From positions 1 through 24,455 of IMG/VR virus record IMGVR_UViG_3300023507_000011: DNA of 24,455 bases; one strand, 5' to 3'. This DNA comes from a virus. Position numbers and translations under genes: made by a program. Shown piece after piece: positions 2,687 to 24,455 of the stretch. The notes beneath the pieces are model-generated. The model was not told the DNA's origin and did not search any database. It was given only the letters and a program-made list of their open reading frames with translations. The stretch's first letter is position 1, and every line of letters starts with the position of its first letter.

Positions 2687-4954
2687 GTGAGTGAATTGGT
2701 AGGTTTTAGAGATGCGCTCGGACACACAATCAGAACGACTTTAAGATTAGATGACACTGGACGGCCTTTTGCCATTTTTACAGGATTTCAACTTGAAACG
2801 ATAGATCAAAGCTATACTCTTAAGGATTATCGTGAAGAATTTAGAAACAACGCTTTGGTTAAGCAATCAGTCTTGCTATTAGCAACAATGGCAATAAAAG
2901 GTGGGTTTGAGACGCAAGTACTGCCATACGACCCAAAAGACGATCCGGCCGAATTTTCGGACTTAAAGAGAAAGATCGACCGCAATAACAAGAAGATGAA
3001 TTTAGATTTATCACTGTTCATTGGGGAGGTAAAACGTAGAATTTACGGTTATTGTGGTTTTGAAATAGTGCCGTCTCAGAAGACCAAATTTTTTGATCTT
3101 TTGCCTCTTAGTTCCGAATTACTAGAACCTGATATAGCAGAAGATTACACATTGAAAGGTTGGAAGTACCAGTATGCTAAGGACGGATACTACAAACCTG
3201 ATCAGATATTTCATCTTCATAATACTCCTTTGGAACGAGACTACAGGGGTATTAGTGACATCGAACCTATTATGCAGACATTAGCAACACGCCGCAACTT
3301 ATGGTTCGACATCAAAGAAGCCGCAAAGCGCTTGTGGGCTCCCATCCTTATTTGCAAAATGGATACTTCAGGTTTGAAGAAAGCTGATGCGGAAACAGCA
3401 ATGCAGAAGTTCTCTGATGAGCTAAAACCTGGTCGTAATGTTGTTCATAACAGGTCGATTGATGTTCAGGTAGTCAATATCACACCAGATATTGGGGGGC
3501 TACTGCGCGCGATTGAAAAGTGTGATGAGGACATAATGGGGAACTTTTCAATCCCGCGCGCTTTACTTGGGCGCGAAAAGTGCTTTGACAAAGACACTCT
3601 CATTATGGACGCTGAGACGGGGCGACTAGTCACCATCAAAGAAGCTTATAAGACCGTGAAGAAAATCTTTACACTTGATGAAGATGGACAGTTTAAGATC
3701 ACGGATGATTTCGTAATTTTCCCAATGGGCAAAAAGCAATGTGTCAAAGTTACAATGTCTAACGGTCTGGATATAACTTGTTCTCTTGATCACCCCATAC
3801 TCACTTCACGCGGTTGGGTCTGTGCTGAAGACCTATTACCTGATGATTGGGTCTTTGCACCTATCTCGTTGGAACCTGAAAGTCAAGAGTCAATCGATCC
3901 TGACATAGCATGGATGACAGGTTTTCACCTTGCAGATGGTTCATTCAACACGTTCAAGCAACCCAATGGTGAATTAAGTATTAGATTTTCGTTATCGCAA
4001 GTTGACGGACCAGTAAAGGATCACGCTTCATCAATTCTTGATAAATTTGGCATTAATCATTCAAAAACTGAACAAGGATTATTCATTAACGGTTACGCCG
4101 CAAACAAATTTTATGATGTATTTCCTGTAAGTCTTTGTAAGGCGAAAGACAAGACAATTCCTGATGAGGTTTTTGGTTGGGACGATAATGGAAAGAATGC
4201 TTTTCTGGAAGGCTTTGAAGCAGGAGATGGTCATCGCCAATCAACCAGATTAACACTTTCGACTACATCGAGGAAGTTAGCTGAAGGTTTATATTGGCTT
4301 TTAATGTCGATGGGTAGACATGCAGGTATTTACAAGCATTCCGAGCGCATGTATAACGTTACAGAATATCGCTTCAAGAACAAACCGACACTCACTCATG
4401 TGCCAATCGAGTTGAGTTCACGATCTGCCAAATACCTGAACCAAGCGCTAAAACGTCACCAGGTTAGGGTGCAAAAATTACCTGGAGAATTTGAACATGT
4501 TAAGTTCTTGAAGGTAAAGAGCATCGATTACGTTGGAGAGCGTGAAGTCTGGGATCTAACAGTTAAGGGAACTCACAACGTTGTTGCTAATGGAATCGTG
4601 GCCTCTAACACGACCAACCGTGCAACGTTGGAGTACTCCATTAAAACAGTCTATGATGTGTCGGTAAAAGGAGCACAACAGTACTTAAAACGTGAGGTTG
4701 AATCTCAAATCTATACACCTCAAGTAAGAGAGGAAGGGTTGGAAGATCAAGTGCGCGTTTTGCATAAGTGGAATCCTCTTACTGTTGTGGATATGATTGC
4801 ACTTGTGAAACCCATTGTTGAGTTGATCAAGGTTAATGCCATTGATGTACCCAAAGCATGGGATCTTCTGGGACTGGACGTAACAGAACTTAAAAGTAAA
4901 AAGAAATTTGTAACACAATCAAAGATAGGCGAGTGGATTGAGGAAAATGAATAA
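2687..4954 (+). CDS. Portal protein, intein-containing
   Basis: A 755-aa precursor giving about 412 aa after splicing. The portal forms the dodecameric ring at one capsid vertex through which DNA passes and to which the neck attaches. Portal-like features are the early region LVKQSVLLLATMAIKGGF (57-74), a long helical and beta body, and FSIPRALLGREK (287-298) joined after splicing to TTNRATLEYSI, the conserved portal segment with NRAT. The C-terminus is acidic and helical. It follows terL as expected. The annotated start is GTG 2687 after GGGGAG. A TTG at 2696, five bases after GAGGTGA, is an equally good start and would remove three residues. The stop overlaps the next gene. Confidence 0.9.
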   Translation: MSELVGFRDALGHTIRTTLRLDDTGRPFAIFTGFQLETIDQSYTLKDYREEFRNNALVKQSVLLLATMAIKGGFETQVLPYDPKDDPAEFSDLKRKIDRNNKKMNLDLSLFIGEVKRRIYGYCGFEIVPSQKTKFFDLLPLSSELLEPDIAEDYTLKGWKYQYAKDGYYKPDQIFHLHNTPLERDYRGISDIEPIMQTLATRRNLWFDIKEAAKRLWAPILICKMDTSGLKKADAETAMQKFSDELKPGRNVVHNRSIDVQVVNITPDIGGLLRAIEKCDEDIMGNFSIPRALLGREKCFDKDTLIMDAETGRLVTIKEAYKTVKKIFTLDEDGQFKITDDFVIFPMGKKQCVKVTMSNGLDITCSLDHPILTSRGWVCAEDLLPDDWVFAPISLEPESQESIDPDIAWMTGFHLADGSFNTFKQPNGELSIRFSLSQVDGPVKDHASSILDKFGINHSKTEQGLFINGYAANKFYDVFPVSLCKAKDKTIPDEVFGWDDNGKNAFLEGFEAGDGHRQSTRLTLSTTSRKLAEGLYWLLMSMGRHAGIYKHSERMYNVTEYRFKNKPTLTHVPIELSSRSAKYLNQALKRHQVRVQKLPGEFEHVKFLKVKSIDYVGEREVWDLTVKGTHNVVANGIVASNTTNRATLEYSIKTVYDVSVKGAQQYLKREVESQIYTPQVREEGLEDQVRVLHKWNPLTVVDMIALVKPIVELIKVNAIDVPKAWDLLGLDVTELKSKKKFVTQSKIGEWIEENE
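3581..4609 (+). mobile_element. Intein (343 aa) with LAGLIDADG endonuclease in the portal
   Basis: Residues 299-641 of the portal precursor. Block A starts at Cys299 (CFDKDTLIMD), block B is CSLDHPILTSRGW (His369), and block F is EVWDLTVKGTHNVVANG. Block G ends VASN and the +1 residue is Thr642. Two dodecapeptide motifs, MTGFHLADGSF (410-420) and FLEGFEAGDGHR (506-517), mark a two-motif LAGLIDADG homing endonuclease between the splicing halves. The residue before the terminal Asn is Ser rather than the usual His. Both catalytic acidic residues of the endonuclease (LADG, AGDG) appear present, so it may still be mobile. Confidence 0.93.
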
Positions 4955-6224
4955 GTCAAAAAATCCTGCTGATATGGATAAGGATGAGTTGCTAAGAACT
5001 CATGAGGAATTGCATCGCGCGTTCAAAAAAGGTCTTGACGGCTGGACTAAAGAAGACTTTATCAATTATCACATTCTGGTTCTTGAAGCCATCAGAAGGA
5101 GAGGGTTTCAGCACACCCCAGCGGATGAGCTTGACGAGCTAACAATTAAGGCCAAACGGAAGACTTTTGAAGCCTCGTTGGGCATTGTTAAGATGAGCGC
5201 TGTTAAGGAAGACTTCTTCAAAGAATGGAATCCTGACATGGCATATATGGTTGGCTTCATTATGGCTGACGCCACTATCTTTGTAGCACCAGAAAAGTAT
5301 CAGTGGAGATTGTCCTTCGAAATAGGTCCAAAAGATCTTGATTTGCTTAAATGGTTTAAGGAAAAACTTCAATATGAAGGCGTGATAAGAAAGGTCGCCG
5401 ACAAAACTTCTCGGACGATGCAGATCAATAACAAAACCCTGGTGCAAGGACTTCTCGAAACTGGTTTGAAACCAGATAAGACCGGATTCCCGAAGGTACC
5501 GGACAATCTCATAGTTCATGCGGCACGCGGTTATTTTGATGCGAATGGTTCAGCGTGGACAGTTGGTAATTCATTGATGCTAAGATTTTCCGGTCGCTCC
5601 CCAGTTATTGAAAAATGGCAAAAGATCATAGAGGAAAAGACTGGTGTGAAGCACCGCAAAATCATCAGAACGGCTGGTACCAACATAATTGCTTTTTCCG
5701 GACAGGATGCATTAAAGGTTGCCGAATGGCTTTATAGCGAGGGTGGACATTATCTTGAAAGGAAAAAGGCCCCTTACGACACTGTGGTTACAAGAACTAA
5801 GCAATCAGAGGACCTTGCACCAATTGGACCATCTGGAATAGAGGAGGGTCCTGAAATCAAGTTGGAAGACATACTGCCTTACTTCAAGTCGTTCAAAATG
5901 AGCAAGCCTTTTATCTTTTTGACTGGTGGTTTGGTAAACAATATGAAGACGAAGGGGGATATTGATATACTTATCAGGTGCAGCGAAAATGACTCTTACG
6001 CTAAAGGGATTGTGTTCCGAATAGTACGAATGTTTCCCGAAGACCTGAGAGGTAGGTTGCATTTTATATTTGATGATTCCGGCGAAATGGACGGACATGG
6101 ACCGTTTACGAGTTACGTGCCTCTTTACGAATTCGTAATTGAGGCAAATCCTGGTGAACGGGTTGAAATGAGTGAAGGGCTAATTAAGGTTGGACCCGGG
6201 AGGTATAAAGTTGGAACCAAATAA
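4947..6224 (+). CDS. LAGLIDADG endonuclease fused to a minimal nucleotidyltransferase
   Basis: 425 aa from the ATG at 4947, which follows GAGG and overlaps the portal stop; a TTG at 4938 would add three residues. Three parts are visible. Residues about 12-60 form a helical hairpin (ELLRTHEELHRAF ... EAIRRRGFQH) that recurs in the large polyprotein downstream. Residues about 85-270 are a homing endonuclease with YMVGFIMADAT and ARGYFDANGSAW as dodecapeptide motifs. Residues about 300-400 contain FLTGGLVN..KTKGDIDILI, the GG...DxD signature of the nucleotidyltransferase (pol beta-like) superfamily. No intein blocks flank the endonuclease, so it is a fusion rather than an intein. The substrate of the nucleotidyltransferase is unknown. 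The endonuclease probably invaded a helical-NTase gene. Confidence 0.75.
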   Translation: MNKSKNPADMDKDELLRTHEELHRAFKKGLDGWTKEDFINYHILVLEAIRRRGFQHTPADELDELTIKAKRKTFEASLGIVKMSAVKEDFFKEWNPDMAYMVGFIMADATIFVAPEKYQWRLSFEIGPKDLDLLKWFKEKLQYEGVIRKVADKTSRTMQINNKTLVQGLLETGLKPDKTGFPKVPDNLIVHAARGYFDANGSAWTVGNSLMLRFSGRSPVIEKWQKIIEEKTGVKHRKIIRTAGTNIIAFSGQDALKVAEWLYSEGGHYLERKKAPYDTVVTRTKQSEDLAPIGPSGIEEGPEIKLEDILPYFKSFKMSKPFIFLTGGLVNNMKTKGDIDILIRCSENDSYAKGIVFRIVRMFPEDLRGRLHFIFDDSGEMDGHGPFTSYVPLYEFVIEANPGERVEMSEGLIKVGPGRYKVGTK

Positions 6225-7176
6225 ATTTCCTGCCAAGTTTACTAATGACCACGTGTCGTTATACCTAGTTGGAGCGGAAAAGAGACCGATAGCAGATCAC
6301 GTCGAAGGGGTCATGCTAAATGCTGTAACGGTCAACCCCAATCACGAATGGTTCCAGGAATACAAAGGTATAAAGGTGATGGATAATGGTATATTTGGCG
6401 GTACCGTGCTTTCTGTTGCCGAGCTCGCTGAGAAAGCCCGTCAGGTGCAACCAGACATTGTTGTTGGTCCTGATGTGCTTTATGATGATGATATCCACAT
6501 AAAATCAGTCGAAAGACAGAAAAGGTTTATGAAGGAAAAGTTGCCTGAGAGGACTAAAGTTCAATTGGTGCCACAAGGCAACACGACGGAACACTATGAA
6601 TGGTGCATTTCTCAAATCGTTAAGATGAACCCGGACTATATTGGATTAGGTCGCATGTCAATGAAACTCGCAGGTTATCCGCTAAAAGGTCACTTTCAAA
6701 GAGTGTATGCGCTTAACAGGTTTGAAGAGTTAGGATTGCTTGATGAGATCAGAGATAATGCGATCAAGATCCACGCTCTCGGAATTTCAAAACCATCCGA
6801 GTTCAAGTATCTTAATTACTTCAGCGTATCGTGCGCAGACTCAATGTCATATATTTATTCGTCAATTTATAATCAGATTGTTTGGCCAGGTGATAATTAT
6901 GAAGGCCAAACAAAGATAAATAAGGACGGTTCGATCGTTAGAAAGAAAACAGATACCGACGAAGTGTACGAAGCTAAGCAACGCTTCTTTGCAACTTATC
7001 CAGCAAGCGGTCCTCTTGATGAAAGGCAATTGTGGATTATTAAGAATGTATGGTTGCCTTGCAGAGCTGAGCTTGCAACTAAAAATCACATACGAGAGAT
7101 TGTTGAGGGCGTCGATTTCGAGAAAGAAAAGGACGATACGCCGATATTAGAGAAGCCAAATGGTAAGAAAGCTTAG
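6211..7176 (+). CDS. dpdA: DpdA/TGT-like 7-deazaguanine transglycosylase
   Basis: 321 aa from TTG 6211, chosen because GGGAGGT ends six bases upstream; an in-frame TTG at 6190 lacks such a site. The sequence reads as a TIM barrel of the tRNA-guanine transglycosylase/DpdA superfamily: KVMDNGIFGG (D58, likely catalytic pocket), IVVGPDVLYDD (D88), LVPQGN (119-124), YIGLGRMS, IHALGIS (187-193) and SCADSMSY with D210 in the position expected for the nucleophile. DpdA family proteins exchange guanine in DNA for preQ0 or derivatives. TGT relatives act on tRNA. The viral context, adjacent phosphoribosyltransferase and DUF6884-like domains favour DNA. No preQ0 synthesis genes are in the window, so the base would come from the host or from genes elsewhere. 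The symbol is tentative. Confidence 0.7.
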   Translation: MEPNKFPAKFTNDHVSLYLVGAEKRPIADHVEGVMLNAVTVNPNHEWFQEYKGIKVMDNGIFGGTVLSVAELAEKARQVQPDIVVGPDVLYDDDIHIKSVERQKRFMKEKLPERTKVQLVPQGNTTEHYEWCISQIVKMNPDYIGLGRMSMKLAGYPLKGHFQRVYALNRFEELGLLDEIRDNAIKIHALGISKPSEFKYLNYFSVSCADSMSYIYSSIYNQIVWPGDNYEGQTKINKDGSIVRKKTDTDEVYEAKQRFFATYPASGPLDERQLWIIKNVWLPCRAELATKNHIREIVEGVDFEKEKDDTPILEKPNGKKA

Positions 7177-7738
7177 TTGGGATGAAATTGAAGGTTACGT
7201 AAACAAGCTAGCCTTCATGATGAGAGGAAATCTGCCAGAGGACGCTGTTCTCATTGCTATTATGAGAGGCGGTGCTATCCCGATGGTACTTCTGTCTGAC
7301 AAGCTAGGCATTAAAGAAACAGGCGCAGTATGGATTGAGAGCTATGATGGCGTGACCAAAGGTGAAATCCGCTTTAAAGGAATGACAAGCTTTGATGGTA
7401 CTCCTGTATTTATTGATGATATAGCGGATACGGGGGCTACGATAGAGTACGTTCAAAAGGTTTTGGGCGGTTTCACAGCTATACTCGTTAAGAGACCGAG
7501 CTGTGCGATTCAACCAGATTTTTGCGCATTAGAAATTAATGATTGGGTTGAGTTTCCGTGGTGCAGAAAGGATTCTGAAGGTAAAGGAGAACTCATTTGC
7601 GAGTTCGTCGAAGATTGCAAGTATCCTTGGAAGAATAAAGATAGATGTAATAATTCACTTCGCAGTTTTAACTGTTCTATTTATGAGAAATTTGCCCTGA
7701 AAGCAGGTCGTGAAATAATCATAACGAAGGTGAAATGA
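7160..7738 (+). CDS. Type I purine phosphoribosyltransferase-like protein with Cys-rich tail
   Basis: 192 aa overlapping the transglycosylase gene by 17 bp. VFIDDIADTGAT (83-94) is the PRPP-binding loop of type I phosphoribosyltransferases. IAIMRGGAIP (32-41) is the PPi loop, and NDWVEFPW (127-134) matches the C-terminal segment of xanthine/guanine phosphoribosyltransferases. The family joins a purine base to PRPP. Next to a base-exchange enzyme it could salvage the released guanine or activate a deazapurine, which is inference. After the core, about 58 residues carry Cys at 135, 147, 153, 163 and 172, which may bind zinc or a cluster and is not usual for this family. The stop overlaps the next start as ATGA. 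Confidence 0.8.
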   Translation: MVRKLSWDEIEGYVNKLAFMMRGNLPEDAVLIAIMRGGAIPMVLLSDKLGIKETGAVWIESYDGVTKGEIRFKGMTSFDGTPVFIDDIADTGATIEYVQKVLGGFTAILVKRPSCAIQPDFCALEINDWVEFPWCRKDSEGKGELICEFVEDCKYPWKNKDRCNNSLRSFNCSIYEKFALKAGREIIITKVK

Positions 7739-10700
7739 TGGACGTAGCAGTTTTAATAGTATCCGCACCCAAATTCAATAAGCCTGAAGAAGGGACCCCG
7801 TCCGAGCTTTGGGGTTATTCCTCCAAGGTGATGGGATTCATTTCAGTTTGTGAGGAGAACAATATTCCGTGGGTTTTGATCGATTATAAACACGGCATAA
7901 TTAAGCCTGATCAAAAACTAAAGAACTACTCCAATCCTGAAGCAGAGATTACTCTTCGTGAGTGGCAAAAAATGATTGTTGAGCAGGCTGCAGATCTAGG
8001 TTTGGTCTTTCTTAACGGGGACGGGGGTATAGGAGATCTTAAGAAAAATGTGACTGTTGCCCATGATCACGACGAACTAGTCCAGTTCTTCAAAAACGGA
8101 GAACAGCTTAGTGATAAGAAGTATCCTTTTGCCAAAGAAGGTGCACAGGTTGGTGGCAAGAAAAGAGTTGCAGCCACTTTTTGTGCTGGTTCCAAAGTCG
8201 CTTTGGATGAGGGCACTCCTAAAGAGCTTTGGGCCTCTGCTTCACCCCGCATAGGGAAATTTATTGAACATTGTGAGCGCAACAACATCGATTATGTTAT
8301 ACTGTCATATAAGTACGGTGTTGTTGACAAGAACGAAGTGATCGATAATTACGATATCGGAAGAAGTCAACTCGATATGGATGAGTGGAAACGTCTAGTT
8401 GAATCACGTGCGACAGAACTCGGAATTAAGGAGATTATAGCTTTTGGAATGCTAGCCAAGAATAGTCCTGAGATTTCAAGCACGTTGGAAAATCTAGACG
8501 GTGTTACGCTGGTGTGGGCTGACTCATATGATGAGATCACAGAGTTCTTCTATAAAGACACAACCTTAGACGACTTCGCAAAGCAGAAGAGGAAAACAGA
8601 CGAGAAGGAACAGGAAAAGAAAGACTCATTAAAACTCTCCCCTCACACAGAAGGCACTAAAGCAGCTCTCATTGCGGATGTTGACTCTTACGATCCTGCG
8701 GATGTTAGTGATGAAGTGTTGAGGAATGATCACGCTATTGTTCATGCGTGGTGGGCTACTCTTCTTGCAGGTAAGGAGTTCAAATATACCAAAGAGCAAG
8801 TCAAGCATCTTCATGACTCCATAGCTAAAGAGATGGTTGCTAGAGGTATGGAACACAACTCACCTTTGGCAAATCTTCCTAACGTTAAACAGTTGCAGGA
8901 GATGCCTGAAATCGTGAAGACGTTGGCGTTAGATGAGCTTCAAGGTCTCGCTAAGGTCTTTGAAGAGTTAGGTGCTGACAATTCGATAATAATTAATGAA
9001 TTAAACAGAAGAGGAGGTGAAACAAGTGCCCAGGTACAAGACAGCAGAGGGAGTAGATTGGAGCTCGATTCAGGACAATCAAACTCCGACGTGCGCAGCG
9101 ACGACGAAGGCGGGGACGCCTTGCAAACTGAAGGCGCGACCAGGAAGCAAGTTCTGCGCGATCCATCAGTAGAAGCCAAAAAGAGTTTAGAGGAAGACAC
9201 GGTAGTGCCATCGCGCTTCTTCTATCCTCTTAAAGGTATTGTGGGATACCGCCGCACCGAGAGATACACACCTGAAGGAGTTAAGTCCTTCTTTAAGGAA
9301 ACAGATTACCCACTTATAGTTCAAAAGAAATACGATGGGGCCCGTCACATCATCTGGAAAGACAGTGACAAGGTCACTATTTTGTCTGATGGTGGGCTCG
9401 ATGTTACTGACAGGCTTCCAACTGTTGTAAAAGAGCTTCAGTCTTTTCCGCATCAGGTGTGCTTGGACACGGAGATCGAGCAGTGGGAAAAAGGAGTTCA
9501 TAACGGTAGAGAAATAGTTTCTGGGTACCTTCGGAGTAAGGACCAACCTGTTAATGATAAAGGAATCCTAGTCAATGTTTTCGATATTCTATACTTCAAC
9601 GATCCTAAGATCAAAAAACACGATCTCAACGGCCAGATAGGTGATTTACATAAACAACCTTATAGCTTGAGGCTTCAGTACCTGGAATTGTGTCCATTTA
9701 GGCAGAGCACTCTTGCCCAACCAGAAAGGAACCTGAGGATGAATTTGGCACCTTCATTTGTAGTTAAGAACGGCTCTGAGCTGGTTAAAGAGTTAAAGAA
9801 GGTCGCGAAAGCACCAGGTTCTGAAGGCGCGATGGTCAAGATGGCATCGTCTGACTACCCACTTGATGGTATGACCAATAAGTGGGTTAAGTACAAAACG
9901 ATGGCGGAGGTCCACGTCGTTGTGCTGAAAAGGATCGAAACGCGGACCAAAGGTGTTTATGTTTATGAGGTAGGTTTGGGTTTTACCAGCAACGATTCTG
10001 TGTTCGAAAACGACGTCAAGGAAGTCAAAGGACAGAGATATTTGTTTGTCGGTAAGACTTTGGCGACCAAGGCTTTTGCTGAACCAGGTGAAATCGCAAC
10101 TATTTCTTTCCACACCCTGTTCTTGTATACAGACAGGAAGTCAGGCGCAATACGCATCAGGCTTTACGAGCCTAGGTGGTATGAGCTAAGGAAGGATCAG
10201 ACAACTCCTGACAACATTAGAGAAGCTATCAATATTGCTGAGGGTGCCAAACTTCTGCAGGAGAAGGAACTAACATTGATGAGATTGAGTGGCGCTGATA
10301 TCGTTGATGACGAGCTTCTCCAAATGAAAGGCATGAAGAGATGGGCGGAACAAGGTGGTTCGCTTAGTGTTTCACTTGATGACGTTTACCTTGAAATACC
10401 GCCTGAAAATAAAGTTTACGAGTTTGTCTTTCAACACGAATATCACGGCAAAAGTGCTCATGGTGATCTGAGACTCGAGTTGCCTGACTACCTAATCGGT
10501 TGGACTTTGAATATTTTGCCTGAGGGTGCGATCAAAGAAGACATAACCACGATTGAACAAGCCAGAAAGATTTCTGAAACTGTTAAGTGGAAAGACTACA
10601 ACCAGGATGAAAAAATTCTTACTGAAAAGAAAGATGCAAAAATACCTAAGGGGTGGTTAAGTGTCGAAGGAGAAAGAGGGGACAGAGTATTCGTCATCTA

Positions 10701-12129
10701 CGACAAAGGAACAATCGAATACGGAGCCCAATTGCCGTACTTCCACGAATACTTCATCAAAGGAAAGAAGTTTAGAGGACGTATTGTATTTAGGATGGTT
10801 CCCAACCTAGATAAGGAACCCGATGACGAAAGGGAATTCCTGTGGATGACGTGGAAACCTAAGGACCAAACACCTTATGTGCTTACAAAGAGATCTATTC
10901 AAAAAGGATACAGAACAGATTTCGGAATTTCTGCCTTGCCAATCGAAGTTAGGAAGAAGATTCCGCGTAAGTACCACTATTGGAATGAGAGAGACGCCGA
11001 TAAACGCTTTGAAGTTCGGAAAGAACTAGTCGAAGCTATTGCGAACGGACTTAAGTTCTCGAAGCTTTATAAGGTGGTTGGTGGAAAACATCAGTGGATT
11101 GATGACGTGGATTACGATGAGGCCAAGTTCATCTATAACGCTGAGCTCGAGGATGGTACTTATAAACTGATACCTGTTAACTTCACACAACAGGGTGACA
11201 TTATGCCTACAGTGTTTGAAGTTAAAGACGGTAAGATAAAGATGGCTACTGCCAAGTTCGTTGTTCAGCACCACTGGTGGAAGGCAGCACGAGTGACGAA
11301 AAGACCTGAAGCTTCTGTTGAGCATTACGATATCAGATTTGATTTTGGTCCTAGCACAAAATCACTCGTGCAGTTCGTTTGTGAGAAGAACCCGCTGGTG
11401 ACCGACAGAACAGTTGCCCTGCGAAAACAAGACAGAAACAAATCGTCGTTTAACGCTGGTAGAGGTAAAGTCCAGCAGATTCGACCAGGCACAGCCTTGA
11501 ACCCAACAAAGGATACTCCTGCGTATATTGAGATCATCGATGAAGGAAAGGCCACAATTCACGTGTCAGAGAATGCTTTGATGAAAGTAGAGTTCTTCGG
11601 TAGCAAACTAAAAGGCTTTTGGACCTTTAGGCAGGTTAACAAAGGGGTTTGGGTTGTTGAAAAAGAGGTCTTATCTACTAACGTGAAACAAGCCATGAAA
11701 GTGGGCGAGAGCATTGAGCACGTTTTGCTTGCTGGTTCGGTTATTTCTTACGAAGAGACGAAAGACGGTTTGCTTGTGAAAGGTGGCGCGATTACACACG
11801 GCACCTGGAACGGGCTTTACTTCCCACCTGATGTTATTGAAGAGTCATACGATCTGTTTCCGGGTGTTAGGATCACACTCGAACATGATCAAAAGAGAAC
11901 TGTGGGTAAATATGTTGCTTCTGAATTTAAAGACCAAATGATTTACCTCTCGGCACTTGCAACTGAGCCCGACGTGATTAAAAAAATCAAGAACGGTGAT
12001 ATTTCCGGATTTTCTATTGACGCCTGGATCTCTGTTGACAGAACCAGGCGGATTGTACTCAGAATTGTTGAGTACAATGATGTGTCATTTGTGAAGAATC
12101 CAGCCTGTTCTATCTGTTTATTGACCTAG
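7735..12129 (+). CDS. Polyprotein: 2x DUF6884-like, DNA ligase, 2x 3'-phosphoesterase-like, prohead protease
   Basis: 1464 aa in one open frame. Residues 1-115 and 145-270 are two DUF6884/YaaA-like domains (WVLIDYKHGIIKPD, YVILSYKYGVVDKN). Residues 325-377 repeat the helical hairpin of the endonuclease-NTase protein. Residues 431-490 are a hydrophilic linker. Residues 525-830 are an ATP-dependent DNA ligase: KYDGAR with Lys532, CLDTEIE (576-582), FDILYF, SEGAMVK (696-702), WVKYK (717-721), then an OB fold with EPRWYELRKDQ. Residues 890-1025 and 1175-1310 resemble the LigD 3'-phosphoesterase (HGDLRLEL at 909-916, HYDIRFDF at 1197-1204). Residues 1333-1464 are an HK97-type prohead protease (LEHD His1384, GFSIDA Ser1427, DVSFVKNPA). 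The protease sits just before scaffold and capsid, as expected. It may cut itself free. Confidence 0.85.
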   Translation: MMDVAVLIVSAPKFNKPEEGTPSELWGYSSKVMGFISVCEENNIPWVLIDYKHGIIKPDQKLKNYSNPEAEITLREWQKMIVEQAADLGLVFLNGDGGIGDLKKNVTVAHDHDELVQFFKNGEQLSDKKYPFAKEGAQVGGKKRVAATFCAGSKVALDEGTPKELWASASPRIGKFIEHCERNNIDYVILSYKYGVVDKNEVIDNYDIGRSQLDMDEWKRLVESRATELGIKEIIAFGMLAKNSPEISSTLENLDGVTLVWADSYDEITEFFYKDTTLDDFAKQKRKTDEKEQEKKDSLKLSPHTEGTKAALIADVDSYDPADVSDEVLRNDHAIVHAWWATLLAGKEFKYTKEQVKHLHDSIAKEMVARGMEHNSPLANLPNVKQLQEMPEIVKTLALDELQGLAKVFEELGADNSIIINELNRRGGETSAQVQDSRGSRLELDSGQSNSDVRSDDEGGDALQTEGATRKQVLRDPSVEAKKSLEEDTVVPSRFFYPLKGIVGYRRTERYTPEGVKSFFKETDYPLIVQKKYDGARHIIWKDSDKVTILSDGGLDVTDRLPTVVKELQSFPHQVCLDTEIEQWEKGVHNGREIVSGYLRSKDQPVNDKGILVNVFDILYFNDPKIKKHDLNGQIGDLHKQPYSLRLQYLELCPFRQSTLAQPERNLRMNLAPSFVVKNGSELVKELKKVAKAPGSEGAMVKMASSDYPLDGMTNKWVKYKTMAEVHVVVLKRIETRTKGVYVYEVGLGFTSNDSVFENDVKEVKGQRYLFVGKTLATKAFAEPGEIATISFHTLFLYTDRKSGAIRIRLYEPRWYELRKDQTTPDNIREAINIAEGAKLLQEKELTLMRLSGADIVDDELLQMKGMKRWAEQGGSLSVSLDDVYLEIPPENKVYEFVFQHEYHGKSAHGDLRLELPDYLIGWTLNILPEGAIKEDITTIEQARKISETVKWKDYNQDEKILTEKKDAKIPKGWLSVEGERGDRVFVIYDKGTIEYGAQLPYFHEYFIKGKKFRGRIVFRMVPNLDKEPDDEREFLWMTWKPKDQTPYVLTKRSIQKGYRTDFGISALPIEVRKKIPRKYHYWNERDADKRFEVRKELVEAIANGLKFSKLYKVVGGKHQWIDDVDYDEAKFIYNAELEDGTYKLIPVNFTQQGDIMPTVFEVKDGKIKMATAKFVVQHHWWKAARVTKRPEASVEHYDIRFDFGPSTKSLVQFVCEKNPLVTDRTVALRKQDRNKSSFNAGRGKVQQIRPGTALNPTKDTPAYIEIIDEGKATIHVSENALMKVEFFGSKLKGFWTFRQVNKGVWVVEKEVLSTNVKQAMKVGESIEHVLLAGSVISYEETKDGLLVKGGAITHGTWNGLYFPPDVIEESYDLFPGVRITLEHDQKRTVGKYVASEFKDQMIYLSALATEPDVIKKIKNGDISGFSIDAWISVDRTRRIVLRIVEYNDVSFVKNPACSICLLT
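9026..9172 (+). CDS. Nested small zinc-finger protein overprinted inside the polyprotein gene
   Basis: A 48-aa frame, shifted +1 relative to the polyprotein, starts at GTG 9026, six bases after the strong Shine-Dalgarno GAGGAGGTGA (9011-9020). It encodes CAATTKAGTPCK then ARPGSKFCAIH: the Cys-x9-Cys ... Cys-x2-His pattern (C23, C33, C44, H47) of small phage and archaeal zinc proteins with CxxTTKxGxPC (DUF5763-like). In the polyprotein frame the same DNA gives a Ser/Asp/Gly/Arg-rich linker with no recognisable fold. The nested frame is therefore likely the older, conserved coding sequence, and the polyprotein has read through it. Function unknown; a nucleic-acid-binding role is plausible. Confidence 0.75.
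   Translation: MPRYKTAEGVDWSSIQDNQTPTCAATTKAGTPCKLKARPGSKFCAIHQ
9205..12129 (+). other. Possible internal translation start giving the ligase-protease half alone
   Basis: GTG 9205 lies in frame with the polyprotein, 33 bp after the nested zinc-finger stop, with AGAGGA at 9189-9194 upstream. Initiation here would give a 974-aa protein (MPSRFFYPLKG...) holding the ligase, phosphoesterase-like and protease domains without the DUF6884-like part. This matches the gene order expected if the two halves were once separate genes with the small zinc-finger gene between them. The full-length frame has no stop, so both products could be made. Confidence 0.35.
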
Positions 12130-12878: not shown

Positions 12879-13333
12879 TGACACAGCTTGCAGGAGATAT
12901 AAACAAAACTTTTGAGTACCTCGTGGTGAAGACAACTTCGAAGACCAATACGGCCGTGACCAGAGGGCAGGTTCTTGCCTTCGACACTGATGGTTTTGCT
13001 CCTTGTTCTGCAGGAGATCAGGGACCGTTTCGTGTTTGCCTAGAAACCAAGGCGGCCGGCGGTGCTGGTGTGCAGACGGAGTTCCCTGCACTTGTATATG
13101 GCGTGGTGTCGGTAACCGCTAATGGTGCTGCAACCAATATCAATGTTGGCGACTACGTTGTTTCTGACGACAATGGGGCTGTAAAGGCCTTTGTGGCGCC
13201 TGACGTTGGAGCTACACCGACCCAAGCATCCATAAATGCGGCACTCCTGGACCTGCTTGAAATAGTAGGACAGGCAAATCAGGCTGCTACCACAGATGGT
13301 GCAGTTATTCAGATCTTCCTTGGAGGTAGGTAA
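12878..13333 (+). CDS. Capsid cement/decoration protein (DUF2190-like)
   Basis: 151 aa, Gly/Ala/Val-rich and predicted nearly all beta. Motifs such as VTRGQVLAFD, GPFRVCLETKAAGG, ALVYGVVSVTA and INVGDYVVSDDNGAVKAF match the pattern of small phage decoration proteins of the DUF2190 type, which sit on the capsid surface and stabilise the shell against internal DNA pressure. It is translated from an ATG overlapping the scaffold stop and ends two bases before the capsid gene, so capsid and cement are made together. Two Cys (about 43 and 53) are present but no metal motif. The exact family is not certain. Confidence 0.7.
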   Translation: MTQLAGDINKTFEYLVVKTTSKTNTAVTRGQVLAFDTDGFAPCSAGDQGPFRVCLETKAAGGAGVQTEFPALVYGVVSVTANGAATNINVGDYVVSDDNGAVKAFVAPDVGATPTQASINAALLDLLEIVGQANQAATTDGAVIQIFLGGR

Positions 13334-19538: not shown

Positions 19539-20795
19539 GTGCCTGTACAGGCAATAAACATAACGACTTCAGCTGAAATCGCAGCTCCTGCAGTAGCCTC
19601 CTACGGCGAGATTTGTATTCTCGGGCAGGATGCTGGCGGTACGGCTGCAGACGAGACTTTGGTAACTTGCAATAACCTTGCAGAAGTTGCCACACAATTT
19701 GGAAGCGGCACGGACATCTACAACGCTGCTGTCGAGGCCTTTGCACAAGGCGTAAGTAGCATTAAGGCTATCCGGGCTAAGACGACCAGTGTTGTTGGTG
19801 AAGTAGTGACCGAGGGGTCTGAACAGACCTTGACTGGAATACCTGCAGGTTCCAGACTGACGGGAAGAGTAACACCCACTGCTGGAGCTGCAACGTTCGT
19901 TGGATTTAAGTACGACGATCCTCTTACAGTGCCCGGAACTGGTGAGTTCGTCGTGAACTCGAAGACCGGTAAAGTTTTCTTTGAGGGTGCTAGCACGGAC
20001 ACAATCAACTACACTGTGGTTGACTGGGAAAGCGCGATTGCCAAGATGATCGATGATCCGACTATTGACATCGTGGTGCTGGCTAACAGTCCGGCCAACG
20101 CTGCTTACTACGGCGATCTTGACTACGTGTGGTCGAACTACGTGGACCCGTACAACGTAATCTTCCCGATACAGACGGATCCCACAGAGAGCGTTGCGGA
20201 TCAGGTGACTGGTGCCGGTAAGTATTCTTCCAAGAATGTGGTTGCTGTGGCACATAAGGACACAGGATCTGATGTTGCTGGTGGTGTTGCAGGAGTGATT
20301 TCCAAAACACAACCGTGGGACAAGCTTATGTGGAAGAGCATCGCAAGAGTAAGTATGGCGTCTTACTTTACACCTAGTGAGGTGGACAGCACGCTGGAAG
20401 CCAACAAGGTGAATGCTATCATCTCTAAGGTTGGTAGCGACGTACTGTCAGATGGCCTTACCACGTTTGGCGGCGACTACAAATTTGTCGACATCACCAG
20501 GACGCAGTACTACATTGAGGGTCTGATAGATTCGGCACTAACCGCACTAATAAAGAATGCAAGAGTTCCGTACACGCCTACTGGTGCGGCCTCTGTACAA
20601 AGCGCGATTGCAAGTGCACTCGATGTAGCTGTTGGTGTGGGTGCTCTCAGTGGGTACACAGTTCAGATGCCTGACTTCGACTCGATCCCGCAAGCTGATA
20701 AGAGCGCCAGGAAACTTCAGAACATCTTGGTGACGGCATATCTGGCGGGACACATACAGACGATTAGCCTAAGCTTGTCGCTACAACTGACATAG
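19539..20795 (+). CDS. Tail sheath protein (contractile tail)
   Basis: 418 aa from GTG 19539, five bases after GGAGGTGA. Sheath features are visible: an N-terminal SAEIAAPAVASYGEICILGQ, then a beta domain insertion (GRVTPTAGAATFVGFKYDDP) and a TIM-like core, DPTIDIVVLANSPANAAYYG, VAVAHKDTG and SYFTPSEVD. The conserved C-terminal region includes FVDITRTQYYIEGLIDSAL. The sheath surrounds the tail tube and contracts during infection, so this virus is a myovirus-type. It is compact, near the minimum for sheaths. Neighbours (terminator-like before, tube after) agree. The last 30 residues carry a beta-strand tail (HIQTISLSLSLQLT) as expected for sheath linkage arms. Confidence 0.9.
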   Translation: MPVQAINITTSAEIAAPAVASYGEICILGQDAGGTAADETLVTCNNLAEVATQFGSGTDIYNAAVEAFAQGVSSIKAIRAKTTSVVGEVVTEGSEQTLTGIPAGSRLTGRVTPTAGAATFVGFKYDDPLTVPGTGEFVVNSKTGKVFFEGASTDTINYTVVDWESAIAKMIDDPTIDIVVLANSPANAAYYGDLDYVWSNYVDPYNVIFPIQTDPTESVADQVTGAGKYSSKNVVAVAHKDTGSDVAGGVAGVISKTQPWDKLMWKSIARVSMASYFTPSEVDSTLEANKVNAIISKVGSDVLSDGLTTFGGDYKFVDITRTQYYIEGLIDSALTALIKNARVPYTPTGAASVQSAIASALDVAVGVGALSGYTVQMPDFDSIPQADKSARKLQNILVTAYLAGHIQTISLSLSLQLT

Positions 20796-20806: not shown

Positions 20807-21268
20807 ATGACAGTAGTTTTTGATATCGATGACGTCCAACTTGAGATCTCGCTGGTAGATGATAGCATTACGCCAGATAACGATCCGCCTGCATCCGGTG
20901 CCATAACGGATATAGGTGAAGATGGTTTCGGTATAACGCCAGGTGGCGAGAATACCGTTATGCAAGGTCTAAACGGTCCGATCGGCTTCAATATTGATCC
21001 GGCGACGTCTGGTGAGGCGGCTCTCAATGTGAAGCCTTCCTCGAACGTGAATCCGTTTCTGTATGAAGCGTACCAGAAGAATTACGTGCTGAAGTTCACT
21101 ATACACGGAGATGTGAATAAGCATGGTTTCAAGTATAAACAGCTAGGTAAGTGCGTTGTACAGAAACCGCCTGAGATCTCAGTGCAAAAGGAATTCCCGG
21201 ACCTCACTTGGACCTTTGTAGGGTACGAGTACAAGGAGGTATTTACGGACACTGAAGGAGGAGTCTAA
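20807..21268 (+). CDS. Tail tube protein
   Basis: 153 aa, directly after the sheath with GGAGG before its ATG and ending one base before the next gene. Beta-rich: VVFDIDDVQLEISLVDD, FGITPGGENTVMQGLNG, AALNVKPSSNVNPFLYEAY, VLKFTIHGDVNKHGFKYKQL and TWTFVGYEYKEV. The core with a strand-turn, a helix (NVNPFLYEAYQ) and a hairpin matches the tube fold shared by contractile tails. Tube rings stack inside the sheath and form the DNA channel. Two loops are Gly/Pro/Asp-rich. Identification is strong by place, moderate by sequence. Confidence 0.8.
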   Translation: MTVVFDIDDVQLEISLVDDSITPDNDPPASGAITDIGEDGFGITPGGENTVMQGLNGPIGFNIDPATSGEAALNVKPSSNVNPFLYEAYQKNYVLKFTIHGDVNKHGFKYKQLGKCVVQKPPEISVQKEFPDLTWTFVGYEYKEVFTDTEGGV

Positions 21269-21598
21269 ATGAGTAATGAGACAGATGGGCAAACGGATAA
21301 TAATGTCAGCTCGCTTTACGTCTCTGAAAACGAACACGAGATCGACATTCTTGGAGTAAAGGTATATCTTAGAGAGATACCTGGCGAAGAGTACATGTCT
21401 ATTGTTGACAAGTGTACCGACAGTAGTCAGCGCCTGAACAGAAAAGCATACTTGAGGGCTTTGGTTGATAAGCTTGTTGTGAGACCGAAACTGGATCCTA
21501 GCAAACTAAATAGTCCTGCATCAGCTATCTTCCTATATGAGGCCGAAAAGTTGCTTGGAGTTTCAGAGGAAGCGATAAAAAACTTCGAAGGGAGGTAG
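21269..21598 (+). CDS. Tail assembly chaperone, short form
   Basis: 109 aa, start preceded by GGAGGAG. EIDILGVKVYLREIPGEEYM (about 29-48) is the beta opening common to chaperones of long-tailed viruses. LNRKAYLRALVDKLVVRP and a helical end EAEKLLGVSEEAIKNFEGR follow. The chaperone coats the tape measure protein before tube polymerisation and is absent from the virion. The gene sits between the tube and tape measure genes, and its 3' end holds a -1 frameshift signal, the standard arrangement for this protein pair. This zero-frame stop TAG (21596-21598) lies inside the frameshift hairpin. Confidence 0.85.
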   Translation: MSNETDGQTDNNVSSLYVSENEHEIDILGVKVYLREIPGEEYMSIVDKCTDSSQRLNRKAYLRALVDKLVVRPKLDPSKLNSPASAIFLYEAEKLLGVSEEAIKNFEGR

Positions 21599-21810
21599 AG
21601 AGAGACTGGCTTCTCTACCTCATCACTTTACATTTTAGCCAGTACACCTTGGACGACGTGAAGAAGTGGAGTTGGAAAGCAATCTATAAGCACAAAATTG
21701 CTATTGATAAGTACCTGAAAACGATGGTTCCTGTTAGTAATCAAACAACGGCACCTACAGTAAACCCCACCATTGCAAAACAAACTTATCAATTTAGGAA
21801 GTTGAGCTAA
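21269..21810 (+). CDS. Tail assembly chaperone, -1 frameshifted long form
   Basis: A 180-aa fusion made when ribosomes slip back one base at 21577-21583. The first 105 residues are those of the short form up to IKN, then 75 residues in the -1 frame start with LRREVERDWLLYLITLHFSQ and end in YQFRKLS at the stop 21808-21810. The extension has no plausible start or ribosome site of its own, and it fills the gap between the chaperone and the tape measure exactly. Its WxWK..YKHKI..DKYL segment is helical, as in other long forms that contact the tape measure. The tape measure ATG shares the last A of the stop. Confidence 0.85.
21577..21621 (+). promoter_or_regulatory. Programmed -1 ribosomal frameshift signal
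   Basis: The heptamer A AAA AAC (21577-21583) is in the correct zero-frame phase (codons ATA AAA AAC). After a spacer of 8 nt, GAGGTAGAGA (21592-21601) pairs perfectly with TCTCTACCTC (21612-21621) around a 10-nt loop. Slippery site, spacing and stem match the classical -1 frameshift cassette, and the extension frame continues open to 21810. Confidence 0.9.
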
Positions 21811-24455
21811 TGGCGATCGGTGTTAGTCTAGGATCGTTGGGCCTATCTTTCGGCACAACAGGTGCAAAACGCACTGAAAGCGAGATTGATCGAGTGATCA
21901 GAAGAATGAAAGCCGGTAGGCTTGCCGCTCTTCAGTACGTCGAAGCACAAAACAAAATATGGCGAATCAAAGCTCAACAGGGACCAGGTGGTGTTGGTTT
22001 TAGAGTTACGCAAGCTGTAGGTAAGTACTACACCGCTGGTAAAGAGCAAATTGAAGCTAGAAGACAAGCGGAAAGTGTTCAGCAGCTTGGTGACGCTATC
22101 TCTAGAATCCCTGTGGTCGGAGGGCCGGCCGCTCGAGCTATTGTTGATTTAGGAAAAGGTTTTAACTTTGCGGGTTTAGCGGCTGATGGTGCTACTGGCT
22201 TTTTGTTACCTCTAGGTTTTGCACTTTTCACCACCGGAGCTTTTATGAGAAGGTTGGGACGGCAATTTAAGAACGCTTTCTCATTAATGCAAACTTCATT
22301 TGCTACACTTCAGAAGCAAGCAGAAATAGTTAGGGTCGTTTTAGGGGATGTTGGAGTCACGACTAAAGATATAATGGAAGAAGCCATAAAGGTATCAAGA
22401 AAATTTTCAGTTTCGCAAATGGAAGTCGCAAATGCGATGGAAATTTTAGCTAAAGCAGGTAAGGACTGGAAAGAAATAGGAGATATTTTGCCTGCGCTCA
22501 TTAGATTTTCAACCGTAGCACAAATGGATATGGAGTCAGCCACAATGGCATTAACTTCTGTTATGGCTGACTTCAATTTGCAATCTGAAGAGGCTACTAG
22601 GACCGTTGCAATTTTAACACAAGCCCTAGATGCATCTAAATTAGCTGGTGAGGACTTGATGGAAACATTTAAGTTCATCGGTCCTGTAGCGAAGGAGTTA
22701 GGATTTGATCTTGTTGAAGTGGCTGCCGCTATGGAAGTTATTTCGGATGCTGGTATTCGTGGTTCGATAGCTGGCACAACTTTAAGACAGACTATGAATA
22801 GGATTGCCCTCGTTGCAGGTTCAACTGAAGGAAATATCATAACGGCAAGACAGGCTATTGCAAGCTTAGGTCTTGAATTTACAAACGCTGATGGAACACT
22901 CAAGTCCTTTGAAGAAATTATAGTTGATGTAGCAGAAAAGACGGCAAAACTCAGTGAAAAGGAGAGAGCCGCAATTATAGCCAGAATTTTTGGAACAAGG
23001 CAGATGGCAACTATTATGACTTTAATGAAGTCAGTCACCGAAGACTCAACCAAAACCATGAGTCAATACAAAGCGGAATTGCGTGCTGCCGCATTTGCTG
23101 AGGAATTTTTGACAGCTCAAGAAGCTTTAAGGACGGGACAGCTGAAGAACTTAAACGAGGAACAAGTTCTGCAGATACGTTCTGCGGAGGAGCTCGCCAA
23201 AACGAACAAAATTGTTGCGTTTGCTCTTGCAGCACGAACTGAAGCTCAACAACAGTTAACTGAAGGGACGTCTCTCACTGATCTCGACGCTGAACAAATA
23301 CAATTTTCTGAAGAACTGAGAAGACAGATTGAGGCGTCAGGAGTTTCTTTTGAGGACCTGAAGCACGCTATAATTATGACTGATGACGAATTTCAGTACT
23401 TCGCCAACTCAGTCAATAACCTTAACACTTCAGCACAAAAGCATCAAGCCATTATGCAAACACTTGCCCAGCGAACAGCTGAATTTAGAAATCAAATTAC
23501 TCGGTTTGCAACAGGTGCATTTGCGTCAATCGCTCCTATGATGACGGCCATCGTTAATGCTGGGATTAAAGTAGTTGGGGTCATAGATAGATTTAAGTTG
23601 TTAAAACCTGCAATTGCTCTGTTCACTCTGTTTGGGATTGCTGTAACGAGTTTAATTGTATTAATGACAGCGATTCTTGCGCCGATAGCCTTATTCGGTA
23701 ATTCTCTTGGTAAACTTGTAAGATGGTATACCCGATATAAGTTAGAAGCTGATAAAGCAACAGAAAGTACCATCTTGTTAGGTAGAAGTATTGAGTGGGC
23801 CGGTAGAACTAGCAAAAAAGTAGCTCTCAAGTTCGGAATGGTAGCTAGTGTGCTTGGTGTTTTATCGCTAGCAGTTTATGGTTTGCAAGGACCACTTGAG
23901 AGTTATCTTGGTAATGCTGAAGCTGCTGAAGTGTGGACAAATAGATTGGCATTAGCACTTACGCTATTATCGTTTGCACCAATGTTTCCTTTTGGGCTTG
24001 TTGCTGGAAAGATCGCTGCTTTTACAAGAGCGCTGATTGCGACTGAGGTGGCCATAGCTGGGTTTAGTGTTTCTTTGGGTCCTATAATTGCCGCCGCTGC
24101 TGCTTTGGCTGTTGGTGGTTATCTCATATATAAGAATTGGGACAAGGTTAAAGGACTGTTTTACACGTTAAAAGACGCTTTGGTGTCTGTTGGCAGTGCT
24201 GTACTTGATTTCTGGGCAAAGTTCAATCCACTATTTTGGGGTCTGAGACTTGCAATCAACCTTGTTGAGAGACTTACAAAGGCTTTCCATGGTTCGGGAC
24301 TTCATTGGGCTTTGGGAACAGTTGCTGATATGTTTAAGACCGTTTTTAGTGCGGCTGTTCCATTTCTGAATATAGCAAAAGGTATTACTGGCGCTATTTC
24401 AATGACGCTTGAAGGTGGCGCACAAGCTAGTACTCCAACAAATGCTCCTTCACAA
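21810..24455 (+). CDS. Tape measure protein (partial, runs off the window)
   Basis: 882 residues are visible with no stop before the end. It sets tail length and passes through the tube during infection. Residues about 165-340 match the phage minor tail/tape measure core (PhageMin_Tail): KVSRKFSVSQMEVANAMEIL, IRFSTVAQMDMESATMALTS, TVAILTQALDASKLAGEDLM, AAAMEVISDAGIRGSIAGTT and LRQTMNRIALVAG. Residues 350-560 are helical. Hydrophobic segments lie near 598-635, 674-692, 713-733 and 749-774 and could insert into the host membrane. An earlier hydrophobic stretch at about 128-145 follows a Gly-rich part. Start ATG overlaps the stop of the long chaperone (TAATG). The C-terminal part and its downstream tail genes are outside the window. 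Confidence 0.92.
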   Translation, partial: MAIGVSLGSLGLSFGTTGAKRTESEIDRVIRRMKAGRLAALQYVEAQNKIWRIKAQQGPGGVGFRVTQAVGKYYTAGKEQIEARRQAESVQQLGDAISRIPVVGGPAARAIVDLGKGFNFAGLAADGATGFLLPLGFALFTTGAFMRRLGRQFKNAFSLMQTSFATLQKQAEIVRVVLGDVGVTTKDIMEEAIKVSRKFSVSQMEVANAMEILAKAGKDWKEIGDILPALIRFSTVAQMDMESATMALTSVMADFNLQSEEATRTVAILTQALDASKLAGEDLMETFKFIGPVAKELGFDLVEVAAAMEVISDAGIRGSIAGTTLRQTMNRIALVAGSTEGNIITARQAIASLGLEFTNADGTLKSFEEIIVDVAEKTAKLSEKERAAIIARIFGTRQMATIMTLMKSVTEDSTKTMSQYKAELRAAAFAEEFLTAQEALRTGQLKNLNEEQVLQIRSAEELAKTNKIVAFALAARTEAQQQLTEGTSLTDLDAEQIQFSEELRRQIEASGVSFEDLKHAIIMTDDEFQYFANSVNNLNTSAQKHQAIMQTLAQRTAEFRNQITRFATGAFASIAPMMTAIVNAGIKVVGVIDRFKLLKPAIALFTLFGIAVTSLIVLMTAILAPIALFGNSLGKLVRWYTRYKLEADKATESTILLGRSIEWAGRTSKKVALKFGMVASVLGVLSLAVYGLQGPLESYLGNAEAAEVWTNRLALALTLLSFAPMFPFGLVAGKIAAFTRALIATEVAIAGFSVSLGPIIAAAAALAVGGYLIYKNWDKVKGLFYTLKDALVSVGSAVLDFWAKFNPLFWGLRLAINLVERLTKAFHGSGLHWALGTVADMFKTVFSAAVPFLNIAKGITGAISMTLEGGAQASTPTNAPSQ

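Follow-up and report, generated by a model that had tools for sequence, protein, structure and literature searches.

We report here that a contractile-tailed virus, whose host is most likely an archaeon, very probably carries a programmed -1 frameshift signal in its tail assembly chaperone gene; on the sequences compared, we give this reading a probability of roughly 0.88. The window, that is the whole stretch of DNA analyzed, is a 24,455-nt metagenome virus contig (IMG/VR IMGVR_UViG_3300023507_000011). Its tail genes follow the order sheath, tube, chaperone and tape measure, and a matching order was observed in the relatives examined. The genes concerned are the following:

19539..20795, plus strand: tail sheath gene (phrog_205, E=1.5e-27; full-length tblastn match to the sheath of Halobacterium virus phiH).
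20807..21268, plus strand: tail tube gene, directly 5' of the chaperone gene (phrog_280, E=5.4e-8; alignment of relatives).
21269..21598, plus strand: tail assembly chaperone frame-0 ORF (short product, 109 aa), between tube and tape measure.
21810..24455, plus strand: tape-measure gene, running off the contig end (phrog_1533, E=1.9e-48).

The name of the tube gene rests on its position and on the ChaoS9 label. As for the gene that follows it, the window protein matches the XkdN-like chaperone family PF08890 (Phage_TAC_5) weakly, at E=0.013, which misses the cut-off, and phrog_344 weakly as well (E 0.0035). Among the relatives the best PF08890 match reaches 9.6e-6, and three of the eight members give a match when E values up to 1 are admitted. 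When an AlphaFold2 model of the window protein (mean pLDDT 81.6) is compared with BFVD folds, the ChaoS9 chaperone (a Halobacterium virus) ranks first, with E 1.2e-3 and a probability of 1.00; in the PDB the first rank goes to YqbN (3klu), with a probability of 0.89 but an E of 0.35. A second ORF overlaps the gene in the -1 frame and has no start codon where the two overlap. Altogether, the position between tube and tape measure and the family and fold matches identify this gene as a tail assembly chaperone of the Caudoviricetes.

The end of the chaperone ORF reads GAG GAA GCG ATA AAA AAC TTC GAA GGG AGG TAG, giving the C-terminus AIKNFEGR and a TAG stop at 21596-21598. The preliminary description of this DNA had reported at 21577-21621 an in-phase A AAA AAC, an 8-nt spacer and a perfect 10-bp stem closing a 10-nt loop, followed by a -1 frame open for 75 codons up to the tape-measure start. 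All these elements were confirmed:

21577..21583, plus strand: slippery heptamer A AAA AAC, in phase, kept in its AAC or AAG version in all eight lineages described below.
21584..21591, plus strand: 8-nt spacer, in the range (about 5-9 nt) of classical X XXY YYZ -1 signals.
21592..21601, plus strand: 5' arm of stem 1, containing the frame-0 stop TAG.
21612..21621, plus strand: 3' arm of stem 1.
21577..21810, plus strand: extension in the -1 frame, running from the heptamer to a TAA, starting KKLRREVERDW; C-terminal part of the putative long product.

The loop of stem 1 spans 21602-21611, and the folding program adds an eleventh pair, a G-U between 21602 and 21611. Past the junction, the -1 frame runs over 75 codons (21583-21807) and ends on a TAA (21808-21810) whose last base, 21810, opens the tape-measure ATG (TAATG).

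Relatives of the window virus were collected by several alignment scans. Single-protein scans with the chaperone, sheath or tape measure gave no usable close relatives. The terminase scan provided 80 virus-contig loci, taken from 121 confirmed; in the 40 records behind the terminase and other loci, a sheath was found in three and a tape measure in four. Further relatives came from sheath and tube scans. The sheath scan gave seven loci, of which L095 was dropped as it ends before the chaperone gene, as do L003 and L085. The four loci of a capsid scan either had no sheath or tape-measure match when searched or ended too early. G005 (L092) and G015 (L091) were left out of the analysis, as was the chaperone region of L009, a distant tape-measure match. 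We thus obtained 12 contigs with a tube-chaperone-tape measure stretch, grouped into eight lineages: the window, L088 (with the near-identical L097 and L099), L089, L090, L094, L143, L151 (with L150 and L152) and L153. Their tube proteins share 32-77% identity between lineages.

In all eight lineages the chaperone gene is split at the same place, and each gene displays one in-phase heptamer. This heptamer is A AAA AAC in five of them (window, L088, L089, L090 and L094) and A AAA AAG in the three others (L143, L151 and L153). The codon preceding its Lys codon is ATA in two lineages and CAA in six, so that the third base is always an A. As a control, in-frame Lys-[Lys/Asn] codon pairs were counted over the plus-strand genes of at least 150 aa in these viruses, and only 3 of the 214 pairs read A AAA AAN; some of the 26 pairs of L090, which partly overlaps L011, may have been counted twice. 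In the tube gene, the same codon is used at 682 of 1698 identical-residue comparisons between lineages, and 10 of 86 aligned Lys pairs have AAA in both sequences. Synonymous sites are therefore far from conserved there, and the identity of the heptamer cannot simply reflect codons shared by descent. The slip-site cassette is thus not a chance occurrence.

Two observations on codon usage can be added. The frame-0 stop is TAG in all eight lineages, versus 19 of 84 long genes ending in TAG; this bias may be trivial, as the -1 frame constrains those bases and the lineages share positions. The L088 virus encodes a tRNA-Lys(UUU) and a tRNA-Ile called as UAU (L101:12019-12093 and 13191-13266), which would decode the AAA and the ATA at the virus's slip site, ATA AAA AAC, and may represent a simple codon supply.

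The extension is homologous in the eight lineages. In the three close pairs of relatives its dN values are 0.34, 0.26 and 0.57, against dS values that are saturated, 0.76 and 1.71, respectively, giving a dN/dS below 1 in each pair. The -1 extension is thus under purifying selection.

A stem can form 6-10 nt past the heptamer in most lineages. We compared the stability of the downstream RNA, at two lengths (40 and 65 nt) in each lineage, with that of background windows, which for the window were 600 other coding windows of its own contig; the fractions below are uncorrected for the two lengths tried. Over 40 nt past the heptamer, none of 600 background windows was as stable in each of three lineages, the window, L151 and L153, where the structure is strong. 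For the window at 65 nt, 64/600 background windows fold as well. The structure is moderate, and found at only one of the two lengths, in four lineages: L090 at 40 nt (22/600 background windows as stable) and L143, L089 and L088 at 65 nt (12/520, 25/600 and 44/600, respectively). L094 displays no notable structure at either length, with 231/600 and 197/600 background windows as stable. Dinucleotide shuffles reached the energy of the window hairpin in 3 of 200 cases at 46 nt and in 15 of 200 at 67 nt. Since the hairpin is significant only locally, the decisive evidence is conservation in relatives. As to the check on relatives that the preliminary description had proposed, namely conservation of both heptamer and stem, the heptamer is present in every lineage, and the structure is strong in three, moderate in four and absent in one.

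The downstream structure is not homologous across all lineages. In the register of the window stem, 73.3% of cells are paired over six lineages, a value attained by 4 of 500 shuffles, and three of ten pairs are doubly changed, which represents a modest covariation. L089 and L143 have in common a long branched stem, in which 95% of cells are paired versus 22-45% in slid versions and, between these two sequences, four of 20 pairs are changed on both sides. In the window, the ACTGGCT of the loop can pair with the AGCCAGT at 21637-21643, which would form the second stem of an H-type pseudoknot:

21605..21611, plus strand: 5' arm of the possible stem 2, window only.
21637..21643, plus strand: 3' arm of the possible stem 2, window only.

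The predicted geometry would comprise a stem 1 of 10 bp, a loop 1 of 3 nt, a stem 2 of 7 bp and a loop 3 of 15 nt. Seven Watson-Crick pairs for a second stem were obtained with 16 of 5000 shuffles and with none of 3329 other 40-nt windows; judged by energy, the figures are 28/5000 and 9/3329. A search for a pseudoknot shared by every lineage gave none, the seven lineages other than the window having no comparable second stem. The H-type pseudoknot is accordingly a prediction for the window virus only.

On the 5' side, the 18 nt preceding the slip site were scored for pairing with the anti-Shine-Dalgarno sequence of 16S rRNA. This pairing amounts to -11.4 to -12.7 kcal/mol in L088, L089, L090, L094 and L143, where 0 to 0.4% of background windows are as strong. 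L151 and L153 reach -7.6 kcal/mol, with 9-12% of the background as strong. The window has no strong stimulator of this kind, 17.8% of its background windows pairing as well as its only candidate:

21565..21570, plus strand: weak Shine-Dalgarno-like AGAGGA 5' of the slip site (-6.2 kcal/mol).

Could the split gene have another origin? The break falls within a run of six As in a metagenome contig, and one would wonder whether a homopolymer error of sequencing or assembly simply broke one continuous gene. The gene nevertheless breaks at one and the same codon, into the -1 frame every time, in eight lineages from different metagenomes; near-identical copies come from three metagenomes each (L088/L097/L099 and L150/L151/L152), and the frame-0 stop lies at three different distances (12, 24 and 39 nt). 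We consider the chance of such an error as practically nil. The runs of six or seven As found in every lineage could also let RNA polymerase, and not the ribosome, slip and make mixed products. Runs of this length are short for efficient transcriptional slippage, the phase relative to the codons is kept, and both the downstream structure at its steady spacing and the Shine-Dalgarno-like stretch of the relatives would be left without a role, all of which makes polymerase slippage very improbable.

The second frame could finally be a separate gene, translated from its own start or by termination-reinitiation without any fusion, and a TTG or GTG codon is indeed available in every lineage. This codon, the first possible start in the -1 frame, lies 63-78 nt 3' of the slip site, whereas the extension residues K1, K2 and V7, invariant over the eight lineages, precede any possible start codon. 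Moreover, the window has no -1-frame start codon within 60 nt of the GGGAGGT at 21588, and keeping the heptamer in phase would be pointless for a separate gene, which leaves this arrangement with hardly more than a slight probability. The assembly error, the transcriptional slippage and the independent start were each rejected on these grounds. The frameshift reading, for its part, survives the two observations that the preliminary description had named as speaking against it in relatives, a start for the second frame and an intact continuous frame, the latter being found in none of the eight lineages.

We therefore return to ribosomal frameshifting, for which the following mechanism can be proposed. 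Most ribosomes would read AAA AAC and terminate at the TAG at 21596, releasing the 109-aa short chaperone. A minority would be stalled by the structure whose foot stands 8 nt 3' of the heptamer, with an anti-Shine-Dalgarno contact on the 5' side adding to the pause in several relatives. The Lys and Asn (or Lys) tRNAs would then slip in tandem, both re-pairing one base back on AAA AAA, and translation would go on over a further 75 codons of the -1 frame. By analogy with the gpG/gpGT pair of phage lambda, the long and short chaperones would in this way be produced at a fixed ratio, and together they would coat the tape-measure protein and feed it into tail assembly. The TAATG overlap might in addition couple tape-measure initiation to the frameshifted ribosomes.

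A broader and more tentative hypothesis, which we would rather doubt than accept at this stage, is that the whole group uses in archaeal translation a tripartite signal resembling that of dnaX, made of an internal Shine-Dalgarno contact, a six-A heptamer and a downstream structure. In such a signal the A-site codon would switch between AAC and AAG, and the stimulator would be swapped between hairpins, the long branched stem and the H-type pseudoknot of the window. If this were true, archaeal ribosomes would answer both bacterial-type signals and those of the eukaryotic-virus type.

The preliminary description had called the virus probably archaeal. The window sheath matches that of Halobacterium phiH over 96% of its length and, among the 251 records hit, a coverage of at least 80% is attained only for three phiH records. 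The only match of the major capsid protein is a Methanomicrobiales virus. Other signals are found in the relatives. An ERCC4 nuclease is present in four of 12 relatives' records (G003, G007, G008 and G009); among 14 control genomes it was detected in four, all of them archaea. G007 encodes a tRNA-Pro(UGG) with a 59-nt intron adjoining the anticodon, which gives a clean cloverleaf once the intron is removed and was missed by the Rfam tRNA model and by the tRNA tool at its default settings. A family B polymerase also occurs in relatives. Within the 24 kb of the window itself there are no archaeal marker genes or tRNA features, PCNA is absent from the 12 records searched, and the sheath scan of species genomes gave no match to a provirus or relative.

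On the other hand, the frameshift could be real and the host bacterial. The terminase scan of species genomes gave 32 loci, all with bacterial titles (MAGs) and none archaeal, the best of them being 27-31% identical; the best terminase matches among the phages listed are Streptomyces phages; and the A AAA AAG of three lineages is the classic E. coli-type slip site. Against these observations stand the sheath coverage confined to phiH, the sole capsid match and the ERCC4 nuclease, family B polymerase and intron-bearing tRNA-Pro of the relatives, and we regard a bacterial host as unlikely. An archaeal host thus seems quite probable for the window virus, through signals carried mostly by its relatives; the earlier assignment is supported by these and by the phiH-like sheath, and stays a probable one for this contig.

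Some other features of these genomes deserve mention. In the window, the terminase and portal genes (755-2638 and 2687-4954) both appear to bear inteins, with a LAGLIDADG domain in that of the portal and weak matches for that of the terminase. In a 1464-aa ORF among the head genes (7735-12129), a region resembling DUF6884 is combined with the domain of an ATP-dependent DNA ligase and with other parts; L003 has a shorter counterpart of 1194 aa at the corresponding position. The region 6190-7176 of the window gives a weak DpdA-like match (E 7.4e-4), and QueC and FolE2 genes are found in relatives (L100:6376-7970), which suggests that 7-deazaguanine DNA modification may occur in these viruses. 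Such a modification has been reported for HVTV-1 (PMC8651126).

A parallel can be drawn with well-known systems. A frameshift conserved in the tail genes of dsDNA phages was reportedly described by Xu, Hendrix and Duda in 2004 (cited in PMC5009743). The g-gt system of lambda likewise makes a short and a long chaperone from one gene 5' of the tape measure; its host is bacterial, and its site and stimulator differ from those of the window. The dnaX cassette of E. coli, in a cellular gene, associates a Shine-Dalgarno-like stretch on the 5' side, the six-A heptamer A AAA AAG and a hairpin on the 3' side. The same heptamer is found in L143, L151 and L153; the Shine-Dalgarno-like stretch stands closer to the heptamer in the window group than in dnaX, and is weak in the window. 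The long/short rule of tail chaperones would now include a virus group that is uncultured and probably archaeal. Gene models could also be corrected, as gene callers easily miss the extension.

Three haloarchaeal viruses can also be mentioned here. In phiH and ChaoS9 from Halobacterium and in phiCh1 from Natrialba, a -1 extension lies 3' of the chaperone ORF and is not annotated as a fusion (L001:10041-10304, L154:2022-2345 and L155:2471-2788). Candidate sites are in phiH a G GGG TTT with a strong GC-rich hairpin after it, T TTT CCA with a hairpin in ChaoS9, and an in-phase G GGA AAT in phiCh1.

Among Archaea, frameshifting of the heptamer-plus-hairpin type had been called little documented in the preliminary description. 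This holds for experiments, which according to the excerpted text of PMC8211752 concern one cellular gene, fucA1 of Saccharolobus solfataricus, and does not hold for predictions, -1 sites having been proposed in the tail chaperone genes of HVTV-1, HCTV-1, HCTV-2 and HCTV-5 (PMC5009743, PMC8211752). Like the window, fucA1 displays a -1 heptamer and a putative stem-loop; it differs in being the gene of a cellular enzyme (PMC8211752). Other haloarchaeal viruses appear to shift in the opposite direction, with a +1 site in the chaperone gene of HSTV-2 (PMC5009743, PMC8211752) and probably also +1 in the HF1-group viruses (PMC7230728). Hardycor1 resembles the window in having a -1 heptamer where its first chaperone ORF ends; this heptamer, G GGA AAT, is different, and no stimulator is described in the excerpted part of its report (PMC7911831). 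In the open-licence literature we found no closer case, be it a pseudoknot- or Shine-Dalgarno-stimulated tail frameshift in Archaea or a slippery site in a methanogen virus or archaeal virus.

Among the closest systems are the HVTV-1/HCTV viruses. They have in common with the window group the -1 direction and the position before the tape measure, the HCTV-2 heptamer, A_AAA_AAC, is identical (PMC5009743), and their hosts are archaeal, as proposed for the window virus. They differ as siphoviruses of haloarchaea known from isolates, whereas the window group bears a sheath and is known from metagenomes; compared with the excerpted accounts of their sites, the window group has in addition a downstream structure and, in the relatives, the Shine-Dalgarno-like stretch. 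Chaperone -1 frameshifting is thus already known in kind for archaeal viruses, and what is new here is its tracing through a group of related viruses. As archaeal frameshifting rests on very few experiments, the natural versions of the signal (AAC or AAG, with or without a Shine-Dalgarno contact, hairpin or pseudoknot) are ready constructs for learning what makes archaeal ribosomes slip, and they form a series richer than those we found described.
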